This document shows positions 7,086-14,685 of a stretch of 36,988 bases of DNA, one piece after another. A program made the translations under genes and the position numbers. The DNA lies in contig JAISQR010000004.1 in NCBI GenBank assembly GCA_031274035.1, positions 1-36,988 on the forward strand. Reading direction: 5' to 3'. This DNA is from Treponema sp. Its GTDB lineage: Bacteria > Spirochaetota > Spirochaetia > Treponematales > Breznakiellaceae. Position 1 is the stretch's first letter, and every line of letters starts with the position of its first letter. The notes below the pieces were generated by a model that saw only the letters and a program-made list of their open reading frames with translations, was not told where the DNA came from and made no database searches.

Positions 7086-7934
7086 TTATTTAACCGGGAT
7101 CCAACTGCTCTTAACGATGTTCTGTCCGTCCGCGGTCATGATCCAGTTTAGGAATTGCTGGGTTTCATCATGGATGGTTTGCCTGCTGGAAAGAACAATG
7201 AAAGGACGGGCAATCTTGTAGCTGCCGTTCACCACATTGGCGGTGGAGGCCGTGATTCCCTCCACTTGCAGGAGTTTAACCGTATTATCCGCCGAACCCA
7301 GAGAGATGTACCCTACGGCGTCGGCATTGCGGGAAATCTCGGCCTTGATAGCGCCGGTTCCGTCAAATTCCGTAGCTCCCGAAAGGAGTTTATCCTGGAA
7401 CTTGACGATTTCTTCAAATGCTCCCCGCGTACCGGAACCCGGCTCACGGGAAACTACAGCGATCCTGCCGCTCTTGGCGCCGCCGCTTACCTGGCTCCAG
7501 TCGGTAACGGCGCCGGTGTAGATATCCCGTATCTGGTCCAAGGTCAGGTTGGCAACAGGATTACTGTTGTTCACAATAACCGCGATGCCGTCTATGGCAA
7601 TGGTTAGTTCGGTAAGCCCTGTTCCTTTTTCCGCGGGGGAAAGCTCCCGGCTCGACATGCCCAACTCGCTGGTTCCAGCGGCGGCGGCTTTGATGCCGTC
7701 GGAAGAACCCGTACCGTTGATGTTGATCTTTACATTACTCCGTATCTTGGCATAGCCGGCGGCCAAGAGTTCCATGAGGGGTGTAACCGAAGTTGAACCC
7801 GCAACCTCAATGGTGTAGGGTGCGGAAGCCGGGGCTGAAGACGCGGGGGAACTTGTTCCTTCTGTTTTTCCGGCGGCAAAGGCCGAAGAGAGGAGGGCGG
7901 TTCCCAATAATAACGCGAGTGATGATCGATTCAT
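7086..7934 (-). CDS. pstS: Phosphate ABC transporter substrate-binding protein PstS
   Basis: Signal peptide; IEVAGSTSVTPLMELLAAGY, VSREPGSGTRGAFEEIV; SD AAGGAG before the ATG; heads the pst operon. Confidence 0.95.
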   Translation of the reverse strand: MNRSSLALLLGTALLSSAFAAGKTEGTSSPASSAPASAPYTIEVAGSTSVTPLMELLAAGYAKIRSNVKININGTGSSDGIKAAAAGTSELGMSSRELSPAEKGTGLTELTIAIDGIAVIVNNSNPVANLTLDQIRDIYTGAVTDWSQVSGGAKSGRIAVVSREPGSGTRGAFEEIVKFQDKLLSGATEFDGTGAIKAEISRNADAVGYISLGSADNTVKLLQVEGITASTANVVNGSYKIARPFIVLSSRQTIHDETQQFLNWIMTADGQNIVKSSWIPVK

Positions 7935-8171: not shown

Positions 8172-8204
8172 AAGTAGTTCCAAAATATATTGGAACTACT
8201 TTTT
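8172..8204 (+). terminator. Rho-independent-terminator-like hairpin in the pstS/LysM divergent intergenic region
   Basis: AAGTAGTTCCAA (8172-8183)-AATATA-TTGGAACTACTT (8190-8201) followed by TTT; 12-bp perfect stem. Confidence 0.7.
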
Positions 8205-8323
8205 ACCCTGAGAGGAAATTGCATAAGCTGTAATTGCTTAAATTATAAAAAATTAGTAATTTTCTCCAAAAGCCAGTTTCATTATTAGACTATGATACAA
8301 ATTTCGTTTAAGGAGTCGGGCCA

Positions 8324-9325
8324 ATGGCATCAACTATTGGTATAAAAATTGCTAATGGGGATTTTTATTCCATATTGGAAGAGAATTCTCAGGTAAAAAA
8401 AAAGCTCGTTCTTACCACCGTTCATAATCGTCAGAAGAGCGCCCAGATTGATCTTTACAAAAGTTATACAAAAACTATGGCGGACGCCCTGTATATAGGC
8501 AGTTTGGTTATCGAAAATATCAGTCCCAAAGTAAAAGGGGACCCTTCCATAGAACTGATCATCAACTCTAATGAGGATGGAGAAATTACCGCTGATGCTT
8601 ACGATAGGGATACTGCCTCAAAAGAACATCAGTACCTAACCGTATCCCTTAAATCCTTTGATGATGAAACAGCAGCCAATATTCCCGATTTTGAACTGGA
8701 GGAACTGGAATCAAGCTCTCCGCCGCGGGGACTCTACGAAAGGTACTCTTCAGCAAGGAATGGGGATAAAAAGGGAACGCCTTTGCTTATCGTGTTGATT
8801 GTTGGGCTGGTCCTTATCCTGCTCTGTCTGCTCCTCTGGTTTTTCTTTTTCCGTGGAAAGAAGAATGTCGCGGAGACGCAGTCTTCCCCGGTTGTTGTGC
8901 AGACCCAGATGGTTACACAGCAGCCCGTACCGCCGGTGGTTAGTCCGGTGCTGGCTGCTCCCCTACCCGAGCCGCCCGCATCAAGCCGGCCCTCCGTTCA
9001 GCCTTCTCTGCCGGCTGCATTCCAATCAGGGCCGTCCGCCCCGAGCGGAGCGCCGCCGGTAATCACCGCTCCGGCGGGACTGCCGGTCAGCCAGTCGGCA
9101 GCCCTCAGAACCAGGCCCGTGCCGCCGGTAGCTTCTTATAAAGTACCGGTTGTAATTCCCAAAGACGGCGCCGTATATAGGATACGCTGGGGGGATACCC
9201 TCTGGGATATAGCGGAATCCTTCTATCGCAATCCGTGGCTTTATCCCCGTATAGCCCGGTACAATAGTATTCGTAACCCCGACCTTATTATTTCAGGAAC
9301 AAACATCCGTGTCCCGTCCAGATAA
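8324..9325 (+). CDS. Membrane protein: Hsp70 substrate-binding-domain-like N-terminus, TM helix, Pro/Ala-rich linker, C-terminal LysM
   Basis: SD AAGGAG. N-terminus STIGIKIANGDFYSILEENSQVKKKLVLTTVHNRQKSAQIDLYK resembles the DnaK SBD-beta. TM is LLIVLIVGLVLILLCLLLWFFFF. LysM is YRIRWGDTLWDIAESFYRNPWLYPRIARYNSIRNPDLIISGTNIRVP. Confidence 0.88.
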   Translation: MASTIGIKIANGDFYSILEENSQVKKKLVLTTVHNRQKSAQIDLYKSYTKTMADALYIGSLVIENISPKVKGDPSIELIINSNEDGEITADAYDRDTASKEHQYLTVSLKSFDDETAANIPDFELEELESSSPPRGLYERYSSARNGDKKGTPLLIVLIVGLVLILLCLLLWFFFFRGKKNVAETQSSPVVVQTQMVTQQPVPPVVSPVLAAPLPEPPASSRPSVQPSLPAAFQSGPSAPSGAPPVITAPAGLPVSQSAALRTRPVPPVASYKVPVVIPKDGAVYRIRWGDTLWDIAESFYRNPWLYPRIARYNSIRNPDLIISGTNIRVPSR

Positions 9326-11846
9326 AAAGGAGCGCCTGCGGCTCCTCTGCTTCGGCAGCTTATTCTTCTATATATTTTCTTCCTGTAACGCGATGCCTCT
9401 TTTGGATATCCCCCGGAATGAAGCATTAAAGAGACTTAAAGAGGGGAATATTGCGTTTGTACTGGATGCAAAACCTGCCGCCATTATGCAACTCGGCAAG
9501 GCTAACCCCGAAGCGGCTTTTTATACCGGCCTTTTGGTCAAGGCGTCTGATGAATACCAGGTCAATTCAGAGATAGGCTTGCAGGAAGGGCTCTTCTTTG
9601 AAGCCGGTATTAACAGCCGATCCCCCAGAGTGCGCAGGGAAGCAGCATGGGAACTTATACCCCCCTTATTAAACGATGAAAGCCTGGCCGTCCGCATCCT
9701 TGAACGCCTTAACCGGAAAGGCCCCCCTCTCTTGGACAATAAAAATCTTAGGAATACCTCCGGCAAGGCCGCAGGTTCCAGATTGGTCTCCGACCAGACG
9801 CTCCGGGCGGCGGCGTTTTTTTCTCAGAGACGCTTTGCCGAAGTAATGCAACTCTATGAAAAAGCGCAGCCCCTCTGTTCATGGGACAGGGCCTTCTCCG
9901 TTATAGGCTCCTTTATCGCAGCATTAGAAACAACAACCCCGGTAGAAAAAACCGAAACCAGTACGGAAAGGCATGATACAAGGGATATTATAGACTTTTT
10001 CCTTACAAACCCTGTTGACGAGGCATACCTCTGGGCCAGGGATCAGCTTGAAATAATGCTGGAAGAAAACCCCGTTCTCCTTTCTGCCGGGGAACTTGCC
10101 GCGATAGACGGCAGAGCGGCCATTGCCCGCTCAAACTACGGCGGAGGTTTAAGGAATTTCAGGCCGGTGCTTGAAGGCCAGCCTGAACTATTTTTCCGCT
10201 ATCCTGATCTTATAATTGATCTGGGCAGGGCTTTTCAGTATTCCGGCGCACGGGAACAGGAAACCAGGGTACTGACGGACTGGGACAACCTGTTTGAAGC
10301 CGGCCCCCCGGGCAATTCCAGCCAGGCGGATAAACCTGAAACGAAAGCCCCTGAGAAAACAGACGCAAAACAGGGATTCAGCGTACCCCAACAGACTTGG
10401 GATGATCCCGCTCTCCCCCTTATCCGATACCGTCTGCTCCTCTATGCGGGAAGAATAGCGCGGCAGCGTTCCAGGCACGAAGAGGCCGCAGGCTTATTCC
10501 TCCGCGCACTTCCCTTTGCCCCCGGCCCCAAGGAGATAGATGCCTGTATATGGTACTTTCTGGACGAAAACCTCTCCTATCAACCGGAAAATACAGCCGG
10601 TATCGCACTTGAATACATATCCCGCTGGCAGGATGTCTCCTACTACGAGGACTTTCTGGATAACCTGTCATCGTATCTCTGTGCTCAAGGGCGGTGGAAA
10701 ACTTTGTTGCAACTGTTCTATGCGGTAAGGTCATCCGGTACATCAATCACCGCCCAGTATGCGTACATCATCGGTAGAGCCTTGCAGGAGGGGCTTTTAA
10801 CTGTAGAAGAACTGCGAACGGTAAGCATGGGGATCGGCACGGAACACCGAACACGGAACACGGTGAATACTGGGGATGGTACGCCAAAAGCGGATACGGC
10901 AGACGGTACAGGAAGCGCCGCAGGTGTAGAGGAAAACACGGCGGAAAGGGAAATGGCGGCCGGTTATTTTTTTAGGATAGCCAGGGATCCCAAGGCTGTA
11001 TTTTACTACCGGGTTTTAAGCTCCTCGCGTTTGGGGGAAAACCTTGTCCCTGTTGTTTTGGATGAGAAGGCCGCAAAGAAAAAGATCGATGTCAAAAAAT
11101 TTCCCCATGCAGACGATGTAACCTTCTTTCTCAACTTCTTTGAATACGGGGCCGCTTCGTTGCTCGCCCCCTATATCCTCAGCATGAAGGATGAACTTGG
11201 TATAGCCGAACTCCGCACTCTGGCCGATGCCTATGCGTCGGAGGGGTTCTGGTACGATGCCAACCGCGTCATCTCCTACTACGAAAACAGGGAAGACTAT
11301 GTCCCTACCCTTGAGGATATGCTTATCAATTACCCGCACCCTCTGTCTGAACTAATAGAAGGCCGCGCCCTGGAAATGGGCCTTCCGGCGCCCCTGCTCT
11401 ACGGTCTTATACGCACGGAAAGTTTCTTCCAGCCGGAAGTCGTATCCAGGGCCGGAGCCGTAGGCATGACCCAGCTTATGCCGGCGACTGCTATAGATAT
11501 AGCAGGCCGTATGGCAAAGGCAAATCTGCCCAATTATATAAAAAACGGCGCGGTTGATATGAAAGATCCGGCGATTAATATCCATATAGGCGCTTTCTAT
11601 CTGAATTATCTTATCAATAACCTCAAAAGTCCTATACTGGCCCTTGCGGCCTACAATGGCGGTATGGGCAGGGTTAGACGTTGGCGTGGATCCCAGAGCG
11701 CCTTGAGCGAAGATCTCTTCATCGAAACCATAGAATTCCGCGAAACACGCATGTACGGCAAACGTATCCTGGGTTCGGCGGCAATTTATGGATATCTTTA
11801 TTACGGTATGAGTATGGAGGCTGTAATAGCCGATATATGTAAATAA
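9309..11846 (+). CDS. Soluble lytic murein transglycosylase family protein (SLT domain, probable lipoprotein)
   Basis: Lipobox-like IFSSC near the N-terminus; C-terminal SLT domain ALEMGLPAPLLYGLIRTESFFQPEVVSRAGAVGMTQLMPATA...LALAAYNGGMGRVRRW. Confidence 0.93.
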   Translation: MSRPDKKERLRLLCFGSLFFYIFSSCNAMPLLDIPRNEALKRLKEGNIAFVLDAKPAAIMQLGKANPEAAFYTGLLVKASDEYQVNSEIGLQEGLFFEAGINSRSPRVRREAAWELIPPLLNDESLAVRILERLNRKGPPLLDNKNLRNTSGKAAGSRLVSDQTLRAAAFFSQRRFAEVMQLYEKAQPLCSWDRAFSVIGSFIAALETTTPVEKTETSTERHDTRDIIDFFLTNPVDEAYLWARDQLEIMLEENPVLLSAGELAAIDGRAAIARSNYGGGLRNFRPVLEGQPELFFRYPDLIIDLGRAFQYSGAREQETRVLTDWDNLFEAGPPGNSSQADKPETKAPEKTDAKQGFSVPQQTWDDPALPLIRYRLLLYAGRIARQRSRHEEAAGLFLRALPFAPGPKEIDACIWYFLDENLSYQPENTAGIALEYISRWQDVSYYEDFLDNLSSYLCAQGRWKTLLQLFYAVRSSGTSITAQYAYIIGRALQEGLLTVEELRTVSMGIGTEHRTRNTVNTGDGTPKADTADGTGSAAGVEENTAEREMAAGYFFRIARDPKAVFYYRVLSSSRLGENLVPVVLDEKAAKKKIDVKKFPHADDVTFFLNFFEYGAASLLAPYILSMKDELGIAELRTLADAYASEGFWYDANRVISYYENREDYVPTLEDMLINYPHPLSELIEGRALEMGLPAPLLYGLIRTESFFQPEVVSRAGAVGMTQLMPATAIDIAGRMAKANLPNYIKNGAVDMKDPAINIHIGAFYLNYLINNLKSPILALAAYNGGMGRVRRWRGSQSALSEDLFIETIEFRETRMYGKRILGSAAIYGYLYYGMSMEAVIADICK
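10843..10863 (+). repeat. Intragenic 7-bp tandem repeat, 3 units
   Basis: AACACCG AACACGG AACACGG inside the transglycosylase gene. Confidence 0.7.
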
Positions 11847-11913: not shown

Positions 11914-14685
11914 TTGAGTCAGCATTATTTCACCAATTTACTGAACGAGGACGGACCCGAATTCCGCATGGCGGCTATAGGCGGGGCCGTCCTGTTGGGC
12001 ATTGTCTCTGTTTTGTTATGTTTTTCGATGATAGGCGCTCTTTTTCATACTTCCTGGATTATTATCGGGCCCGGTCTCTTTTTTATTACTTCTTACGGCA
12101 TATTGGCCCTTGTTATACCCGCATTTCTCTTCTATGCGGCCTTTATCCTTGCGGAGAACGACTACCGCCCTGACCGTATCTTTATCCTTGCTTGCAGCAT
12201 AGTCCCCTTCCTGACCCTTGCCCTCGGTTTCTCCCTTATTCGCGGTTTCGATACCTATGCGGAAAAATCGGTCTTTGTCAACCTTGCGGGAAGGACGGGC
12301 CTGAGCCTCATCATACTTCTCATAACCACCATTGAGGTGTTAGGTATTGCCTTACTAAAGTTTCTGTTCTTCCCCTACAGATCCGAAAATCAGGGAACAG
12401 CATCTGGCGGTAAAAAACGGAAGGGTTTCGGCATACATATCACTTCCAGTCTCAAAATTAGGGAGATATATATGGGAGCTGCTGCTGAAAAAAATAATGA
12501 AAACGCGGAACGGCAAAAGCGCTGCTTTCAGTTTCCTAAACTAAAACCCCTTGCAAGTTCCCTGGCGTTTGAGGAATTTGACCGGATAGTGCAGCCTCGT
12601 GCGGAGGGTAATGATGAGTACGGGCAAACGGAAAATAGCCTTGTAGTTCAAACCCAGTTCCGTCCGCCTGCTATTCGGGAAGATGCTTTCCCTACTTTGA
12701 TCAGCCCCGCTTCAGGGTATGGTAAATTTTCGTCCAATCCCGCTTCCCCTTATATGCCGGACCATGCTCAGGGGCCGGAAATACCTCCGCATATGCAGGA
12801 AGAACCTGCAAGGGTTTATTTTATTCCGCCTTCCCCCCCGTATGAGGATAATACGGGGGCGCCAATTTCCCCGTCTACGGGCTGGGGAGGGATATCCGGC
12901 CCGAAAGAACTACAGGCAGAAAACGCCTGGGGTAGATGCGGTAAGGCGGTAGATGTCCTGGAAAACATGGCTGGTGTGCCCGATTCTGCCGGGAATACGA
13001 TTCCTTCCCCTGTTGACGAGAATGTTCCTGCTCTGGCTGGTAAAGAAAGTCTTCACTCTCACGAATTTTCAGGCTATAGCGATCCCTATATACAGCCGGC
13101 GGCCAGGGGGTTGTCAAACCGATCCTCAGCCGTTACTGCCGGAATGCAGAATAGCCCCCGCCCCGGGCATGCTGCTGGTTCCAAGCCCCCCCAGGATACA
13201 CTTCAGAGTACACGGAATAAAGAGGCATCCTCAGCCGTTCAGCAAATTCCCCCTTCCTCCAAAGCACGCATCCCCTATGCTATACCGGTTGAGGGCATAC
13301 TTACCCAGTACCCGGACGGTCAATACTGGATCATCGACCAGGCTACCCGCGAAGCGGCGTTGATCCTCAAGGAGACCCTCCGCGAATTCAAGATACAGGC
13401 CGAAGTTACCGGCATACGGAAGGGGCCTGTTATCACTATGTTCGAGATACTGCCCGCGCCTGGGGTAAAGCTATCCCGTATTGTGAACCTTCAGGACAAT
13501 ATAGCCCTGCGCCTTGCCGCTTCGTCGGTACGGATTGTCGCGCCCATTCCAGGCAAACATGCGGTAGGTATAGAAGTGCCCAATGCCAAACGGAATATTG
13601 TTTCTTTTAGGGAGATTATCGAAGGAGAGCTTCAGCGGGAAGGGCGGAAGCCGGAAATCCCCGTAGCCTTGGGCAAAGATATCACCGGGGAGGCCCAAAC
13701 CATAGATCTTGTGCAGATGCCCCATCTTCTTATCGCAGGTTCTACCGGATCGGGAAAATCGGTCTGTGTCAATTCGATGATCCTCTCTATCCTCTATCAG
13801 CGGGCTCCGGCGGAATGTAGGCTTATCCTTATAGATCCAAAAATCGTAGAACTTAAACTGTATAACGACATTCCGCACCTTTTAACGCCGGTTATCACCG
13901 AGCCCAAAAAGGCGTTTCAGGCTTTGCAGTACCTTATATTTGAGATGGAAAGACGCTACGCCTGCCTTGACTCTATGGGTGTCAGGGACATTAAAAGCTA
14001 TAACCGCCGCATCCGCGAGCGGGGTATTGCCGCAGAACACATGCCCTATATTGTGGTAGTGATAGATGAATTTGCCGATCTTATGGCCACTACCGGCAAG
14101 GAACTGGAATCTACCGTCGCCCGCCTTGCCGCCATGTCGCGTGCGGTCGGTATTCACCTGGTACTGGCAACGCAGAGACCTTCTATTGATGTGATAACCG
14201 GCCTTATCAAGGCAAATATTCCAAGCCGTATTGCATTTATGGTAGCCAGCAAGATGGACAGCCGTATCATTATAGATATGGTCGGTGCGGAAAAACTTCT
14301 TGGCAAAGGCGACTTGCTCTACGCTGGCGCGGTGGATCCCTTCCCCATCCGTATGCAGGGGGCTTATGTTTCCGAAGACGAAGTAGAAAATGTTGTAGAG
14401 TATGTTAAAACCCTCGGATCGCCGGATTACATTGACGAGGAGATATTCTACGATGATGATGAAGACGAGGCAAGCCCCAGTCTCTATTCCGAAGGAGACG
14501 ATCCGCTCTATGAAAAGGCTATAGAAATCGTTACCCAGCAGGGAAAGGCCAGCGCCAGCTACATTCAGCGCCGTCTCAAGATAGGGTATAACCGGGCGGC
14601 GCGGCTTGTAGAAGAGATGGAAAAACGCGGTGTAGTCGGCCCAGCCCAGGGCTCCAAGCCGCGGGAGCTTCTGCGGGGGATATAG
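11914..14685 (+). CDS. ftsK: DNA translocase FtsK/SpoIIIE (TTG start)
   Basis: N-terminal TM helices, low-complexity linker, motor with Walker A AGSTGSGKSVCVNSMI, VVIDEFADLMATTGKELE, HLVLATQRPSIDVITGLIKANIPSRIAF, C-terminal gamma-like winged helix. Confidence 0.96.
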   Translation: MSQHYFTNLLNEDGPEFRMAAIGGAVLLGIVSVLLCFSMIGALFHTSWIIIGPGLFFITSYGILALVIPAFLFYAAFILAENDYRPDRIFILACSIVPFLTLALGFSLIRGFDTYAEKSVFVNLAGRTGLSLIILLITTIEVLGIALLKFLFFPYRSENQGTASGGKKRKGFGIHITSSLKIREIYMGAAAEKNNENAERQKRCFQFPKLKPLASSLAFEEFDRIVQPRAEGNDEYGQTENSLVVQTQFRPPAIREDAFPTLISPASGYGKFSSNPASPYMPDHAQGPEIPPHMQEEPARVYFIPPSPPYEDNTGAPISPSTGWGGISGPKELQAENAWGRCGKAVDVLENMAGVPDSAGNTIPSPVDENVPALAGKESLHSHEFSGYSDPYIQPAARGLSNRSSAVTAGMQNSPRPGHAAGSKPPQDTLQSTRNKEASSAVQQIPPSSKARIPYAIPVEGILTQYPDGQYWIIDQATREAALILKETLREFKIQAEVTGIRKGPVITMFEILPAPGVKLSRIVNLQDNIALRLAASSVRIVAPIPGKHAVGIEVPNAKRNIVSFREIIEGELQREGRKPEIPVALGKDITGEAQTIDLVQMPHLLIAGSTGSGKSVCVNSMILSILYQRAPAECRLILIDPKIVELKLYNDIPHLLTPVITEPKKAFQALQYLIFEMERRYACLDSMGVRDIKSYNRRIRERGIAAEHMPYIVVVIDEFADLMATTGKELESTVARLAAMSRAVGIHLVLATQRPSIDVITGLIKANIPSRIAFMVASKMDSRIIIDMVGAEKLLGKGDLLYAGAVDPFPIRMQGAYVSEDEVENVVEYVKTLGSPDYIDEEIFYDDDEDEASPSLYSEGDDPLYEKAIEIVTQQGKASASYIQRRLKIGYNRAARLVEEMEKRGVVGPAQGSKPRELLRGI

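Follow-up and report, generated by a model that had tools for sequence, protein, structure and literature searches.

A membrane-anchored Hsp70 substrate-binding domain without its ATPase is encoded beside mltS in spirochetes and may serve the flagellum

Introduction

Hsp70s are commonly studied as ATP-clocked machines. A stretch of 36,988 nt from a Treponema sp. (contig JAISQR010000004.1; hereafter the window) encodes a protein that raises the question of what an Hsp70 substrate-binding domain (SBD) might do once it is detached from that clock and fixed to a membrane. A sequence-only reading of the window had compared the first ~110 aa of this protein to the DnaK SBD-beta sandwich, found no ATPase domain, noted that a transmembrane (TM) helix, a Pro/Ala linker and a LysM domain follow, and proposed that a cytoplasmic peptide-binding module free of nucleotide control is coupled across the membrane to peptidoglycan. 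Here we analyze this gene, which we call the orphan, together with its homologues, its neighbors and its co-distribution with flagella. The relevant features of the window are as follows.

8310..8315, + strand: ribosome-binding site AAGGAG, 8 nt 5' of the orphan ATG (from sequence)
8324..9325, + strand: orphan SBD-beta / TM / LysM gene, ATG start, 333 aa (open reading frame and homologues)
8333..8668, + strand: Hsp70 substrate-binding domain beta, aa 4-115 (Pfam, PDB sequence search, AlphaFold2 with Foldseek, column mapping)
8684..8701, + strand: motif PDFELE, aa 121-126 (column entropies)
8783..8839, + strand: single TM helix, aa ~154-172, most likely N-in/C-out (hydropathy 3.44; K+R bias)
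8852..9175, + strand: Pro/Ala-rich linker, most likely periplasmic, aa 177-284 (P or A at 37 of 108 residues)
9176..9316, + strand: LysM domain, aa 285-331 (Pfam PF01476, 30.3 bits)
9309..11846, + strand: mltS, a BB0259-type flagellar lytic transglycosylase gene whose product has a lipoprotein-like N-terminus (NCBIfam NF047373, Pfam SLT)
11914..14685, + strand: ftsK, the conserved cluster's third gene (alpha, motor and gamma FtsK domains by Pfam)

Results

An Hsp70 substrate-binding domain on a membrane anchor

The Pfam HSP70 profile (PF00012) matched the orphan protein at 28.4 bits (cut-off 20.6) over aa 4-115 only, which correspond to profile positions 393-506 of 599, that is, to SBD-beta alone. 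A phmmer search of the PDB returned DnaK/Hsp70 SBD chains at E ~1e-5, and a family profile built from 69 homologues matched PDB Hsp70 SBDs at E 3.7e-13. The AlphaFold2 model of the domain, made from an alignment of homologues, is an eight-strand sandwich (pLDDT 85.5); its best 50 Foldseek matches in the PDB were all Hsp70-family SBDs, headed by DnaK 4r5j (E 2.3e-9, rmsd 2.0 A over 111 columns). Model and profile searches thus converge on the fold suggested by the sequence-only reading, and we hold the assignment of the N-terminal domain to the Hsp70 SBD-beta fold to be practically certain; the concordance of Pfam, PDB profile and Foldseek rules out a chance similarity. The other defining parts of an Hsp70 chaperone are missing around this domain. 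Pfam found no nucleotide-binding (ATPase) domain (NBD) anywhere in the open reading frame, which begins at the SBD and encodes no interdomain linker, and the helical SBD-alpha lid is absent from both model and sequence, in which a short helix (aa 110-115) is followed by a low-confidence stretch and then the TM helix. The gene is also not a remnant or pseudogene of dnaK: its frame is open in more than 100 homologues, the orphan SBDs form a clade of their own, and the genome has two intact dnaK genes at other loci.

The remainder of the protein follows the anticipated order, with one TM helix, a Pro/Ala-rich linker and a LysM domain that scores well above its curated Pfam cut-off (30.3 versus 20.9 bits). 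K+R residues are more abundant on the N-terminal side of the TM helix in 85 of 104 homologues and less abundant in 8, which most likely places the SBD in the cytoplasm and the LysM domain in the periplasm; no signal peptide was found in the orphan protein, in keeping with the cytoplasmic placement that had been proposed.

The genome bin from which the window comes contains two full-length DnaK frames of 648 aa each and several other Hsp70-like genes, some of which may be foreign, as the bin has a listed contamination of 5.85%.

The peptide cleft is conserved and the surfaces for nucleotide and J-protein control are lost

We aligned 79 orphan representatives (<80% identity) to E. coli DnaK numbering and calculated column entropies. 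In the window's protein, the DnaK peptide-cavity residues are represented by I7, A10 (arch, 404), L30, T31, T32, V33 (arch, 429), Q37, A40 (436), I42 and I76, the position of DnaK V436 being Ala in this copy and Val in most homologues. Entropies were lowest at DnaK positions 399-402, 404 (Ala), 406, 408, 422, 426-428, 433, 455 and 486, with Q433, I401, G406, T428 and the Ala at 404 nearly invariant. When the cavity was defined by the DnaK residues listed in PMC4408060 Table 4, mean entropy was 1.29 bits in its columns and 1.99 elsewhere (p = 2.6e-4, from random sets as low), and a smaller DnaK contact set pointed in the same direction. Cavity columns were also better conserved than hydrophobic columns that do not contact peptide.

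Both comparisons speak against a reading in which the SBD-beta is a mere folded scaffold, supporting oligomerization or protein contact through another face while its cleft holds no peptide, as does the concentration of invariant residues in L1,2 and L3,4, the loops that enclose peptide in DnaK. The scaffold reading can draw on the lack of a lid or nucleotide cycle, on the Borrelia members, in which the conserved T..Q motif of the cleft has diverged, and on the Chlamydomonas axonemal protein FAP363, whose Hsp70-like C-terminal stretch is apparently structural (a weak PDB match, E 0.006). On balance we consider it unlikely, and we give peptide binding in the cleft, as predicted from these conservation patterns, a somewhat better than even chance.

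The residues through which an Hsp70 SBD is controlled have fared differently from the cleft. I418-P419 is deleted in all 79 representatives, K414 is replaced by E or D in 72 of the 79, reversing its charge, and neither D477 (mostly replaced) nor D481 (variable) is retained. In Hsp70s, P419 and D477 contact the J-domain, and K414 and D481 form the NBD clamp (PMC8215388). Because the cavity columns are conserved and these contact residues are lost, the orphan domain looks like one in which selection has acted on the cleft and control by nucleotide and J-proteins has been given up, which agrees with the earlier suggestion that it works without a nucleotide cycle.

About 10 residues past the SBD, within an otherwise variable acidic stretch, lies a conserved motif, PD-F-[ED]-[LF] (PDFELE in the window's copy). 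Its D122 and F123 columns have entropies of 1.03 and 1.29 bits, surrounding columns being mostly above 2, and the segment is modeled with low confidence (pLDDT ~55). This motif may be a cis ligand of the cleft or a docking site for a partner.

A single spirochete family in which LysM is optional

Homologues were present in 50 of 59 related genomes, and the best 80 matches of a genome scan, from which 80 contigs were taken, were all labelled spirochetes. In a tree of 52 SBDs, a branch with support 100/99 separated every orphan from DnaK and the other Hsp70s; by this tree the orphan SBDs are a single spirochete clade, distinct from every Hsp70/DnaK SBD included. Among 28 diverse aligned members, LysM was present in 28 of 28 and the Pfam HSP70 profile recognized 24. 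Across the whole family, distant members included, what is shared is an SBD-beta followed by an acidic stretch and a TM helix. Borrelia and the copies linked to mltS in families f6, f7, f8, f9 and f12 have no LysM; Borrelia and the f6, f8, f9 and f12 copies rule it out as the defining part of the family. The proposed SBD-TM-LysM layout is therefore conserved in spirochetes for its first two elements only, and coupling to peptidoglycan holds as a LysM tether in the window's protein and fails as an essential link, so that a wall tether is not the core function everywhere.

The family reaches two well-known pathogens, the bacteria of syphilis and Lyme disease. A genome that we take to be T. pallidum Nichols encodes a full-length homologue with 31% identity, followed by MltS; this would be TP0042. 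The corresponding TPASS_0042 has been given only as a LysM protein (PMC4403809). The Borrelia gene that precedes mltS would, from gene numbering, be BB0260. Its product has no Pfam or NCBIfam match, and its N-terminus was matched by profiles at 2e-9 to 2.5e-4. AlphaFold2 modeled it at pLDDT 87.2 from an alignment in which some rows came from the wider family and may have helped the model, and the best 50 Foldseek matches in the PDB were all Hsp70 SBDs (best E 7.6e-6). Profile matches and model show an Hsp70 SBD fold in the Borrelia protein as well.

Two further groups of genes were seen alongside the family. Two paralogues of the orphan SBD gene occur in family f6 (L178:6932-7948, L180:7137-8156, L179:8105-8710, L181:6757-7350): a short one without LysM adjoins mltS, and a LysM-bearing one lies elsewhere, next to a gene of ~1,610 aa whose product in L178 matches bacterial Ig-like domains. 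Several deep spirochete lineages (L210-L219, L224, L225) carry an Hsp70 paralogue of ~575-600 aa; its SBD mostly outscores canonical DnaK with the orphan profile, and it groups with DnaK in the tree.

The orphan gene is linked to mltS and ftsK

In the window, the first 17 nt of mltS (9309-9325) are shared with the orphan gene, and the mltS product matches the NCBIfam family of BB0259 (NF047373) at 405 bits (cut-off 234). Hook penetration of the wall depends on BB0259, which also binds FlgJ (PMC8517470); BB0259 is a genuine lytic transglycosylase and has been renamed MltS (PMC12279116). The SLT neighbor pointed out in the sequence-only reading is thus conserved, since at 98 of 112 loci (a non-redundant set with >1.5 kb of room) the gene immediately 3' of the orphan is mltS, and the NF047373 score led us to drop a generic SLT enzyme in favor of MltS/BB0259.

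A third gene, ftsK, frequently comes next after the orphan-mltS pair. It does so in the window (11914-14685), in Borrelia, f6 and f12 a uppP gene separates mltS from ftsK, and in family f10 ftsK follows immediately after an SBD-TM-LysM orphan with mltS absent. These arrangements favor a second rival, in which the orphan is a divisome or general wall-growth adaptor that works with FtsK and UppP and not with flagella.

No recognizable MltS was found in genome G285 or, with NF047373, in family f10, both of which have the orphan, and MltS occurs without the orphan in non-flagellate members of family f4; this weakens the idea of a strict pairing. In f16 and f29, families outside the window's class of the phylum, an SBD-TM-LysM gene is located apart from mltS. 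The f10 genomes G190, G262 and G288, which keep SBD-TM-LysM beside ftsK, gave partial FliF matches in frames of 322-475 aa.

The orphan is lost with flagella

Using TIGR00206 as a marker for FliF, we compared hand-picked genomes with and without this flagellar protein. FliF was absent from nine f13 and five f4 genomes, which represent two losses only; a further FliF-negative genome, G005, is 64% complete and was left out of the count. None of the 14 FliF-lacking genomes from these two lineages has the orphan, the matches found there being DnaK-type or stray LysM frames. MltS is likewise absent from the f13 genomes. In f4, four of the five FliF-lacking genomes retain MltS (L228, L229, L230, L231) and no orphan was detectable upstream of mltS, whereas f4 members with flagella retain the orphan. 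Because mltS is kept in the FliF-lacking f4 genomes, its product presumably serves some non-flagellar purpose in them.

Linkage alone can hardly account for the disappearance of the orphan along with flagella from genomes that retain mltS, a pattern that also counts against an exclusive role with FtsK or in division. The divisome reading thus faces two losses of the orphan that accompanied the loss of flagella, one of them with mltS retained, in f13 and f4 bacteria that still have to divide, and we rate it as quite unlikely. A flagellar role for the orphan, which the sequence-only reading had not anticipated, is in our assessment probable.

Among FliF-positive genomes tested, 31 of 39 have the orphan. 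It is absent from the other eight (G010, G012, G024, G028, G032, G225, G289, G269), of which G010, G028 and G032 are 74-81% complete, and its absence from these genomes means that flagella do not require it in every case. In the flagellate G024, a broken remnant of an orphan LysM (52% identity over 42 aa, with stops) lies directly upstream of mltS at L227:3176-3301.

Discussion

A proposed constitutive adaptor for flagellar sites

We tentatively infer, at somewhat less than even confidence, that the orphan is a nucleotide-independent peptide-recognition adaptor which, at flagellar sites, links the wall to a flagellar ligand in the cytoplasm. An Hsp70 SBD-beta split from its ATPase would here act as a permanently "unclocked" recognition head facing the cytoplasm from the inner membrane, its cleft gripping an extended linear motif of a cytoplasmic flagellar protein or, in a resting state, possibly the protein's own conserved PDFELE tail. 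The TM helix would relay this position, or address, across the membrane, and in the window's protein and most close relatives the long Pro/Ala linker and LysM would reach the peptidoglycan. The orphan might thereby mark or scaffold the site at which MltS opens the wall for the periplasmic flagellum; spatial control of wall opening, and any effect on MltS itself, would be part of this proposal. A fuller version is possible and more doubtful: an SBD captured early in spirochetes may have been stripped of nucleotide and co-chaperone control to become a membrane-fixed linear-motif receptor that directs MltS to the flagellum site.

The last alternative, a membrane receptor that delivers clients in an unfolded or export-competent state, such as flagellar substrates or the signal peptide of MltS, to the DnaK system or accepts them from it, fits the SBD-beta fold and the two full-length DnaK genes of the same genome but is improbable, the J-domain and NBD contact surface being erased and the conserved neighbors in the neighborhoods read being mltS, uppP and ftsK and not chaperone genes, with a short Hsp70 gene a few genes off in Borrelia alone.

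Relation to known proteins

In overall anatomy the orphan resembles RodZ, DamX and FtsN, bitopic adaptors that bind the wall and that also have a cytoplasmic N-terminal part, one TM helix, a flexible periplasmic linker and a C-terminal periplasmic domain; those proteins carry helix-turn-helix or other segments in the cytoplasm and SPOR or other domains in place of LysM. With DnaK and other Hsp70s it shares the eight-stranded SBD-beta fold (the C-terminal part of PF00012), the conserved peptide-cavity columns and the enclosing loops. It differs from them in having no NBD, linker or lid, in the deletion of I418-P419 and the reversal of K414, in forming a separate clade, and in its fusion to a TM helix and usually LysM. 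The fold is that of an SBD-beta, but because NBD, linker, lid and J-domain contacts are all gone, the orphan is a new use of the Hsp70 SBD and not an Hsp70 chaperone. MltS (LTase-Bb, BB0259), encoded by the adjacent and often overlapping or abutting gene, shares the process proposed for the orphan; it is an enzyme of a different family and a neighbor only. HscA, the Hsp70 for IscU, provides a precedent for an SBD dedicated to a single motif and not to general chaperoning (PMC8215388); unlike the orphan, it is soluble and retains a functional ATPase and lid. The literature searched, largely without subscription papers, contained no description of the orphan protein, whether as Hsp70 plus LysM, SBD-only Hsp70, TP0042 or BB0260, in line with the earlier remark that no characterized system has this layout.

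A natural, conserved SBD-beta without ATPase, lid or co-chaperone surface offers a clean test of the cleft acting alone. The orphan is likewise a testable candidate for how spirochetes place and time wall opening for their periplasmic flagella, and the adaptor proposed here is a first functional hypothesis for two uncharacterized genes, the presumptive TP0042 of T. pallidum and BB0260 of B. burgdorferi. If it is true, a chaperone fold has been turned into a constitutive spatial adaptor.

Upstream of the orphan gene, a pstS-like gene (7086-7934, - strand) is divergently oriented. Between the two, at 8172-8201, lies a near-perfect 15+15 nt palindrome (AAGTAGTTCCAAAAT/ATATTGGAACTACTT), a possible operator or terminator-like hairpin.
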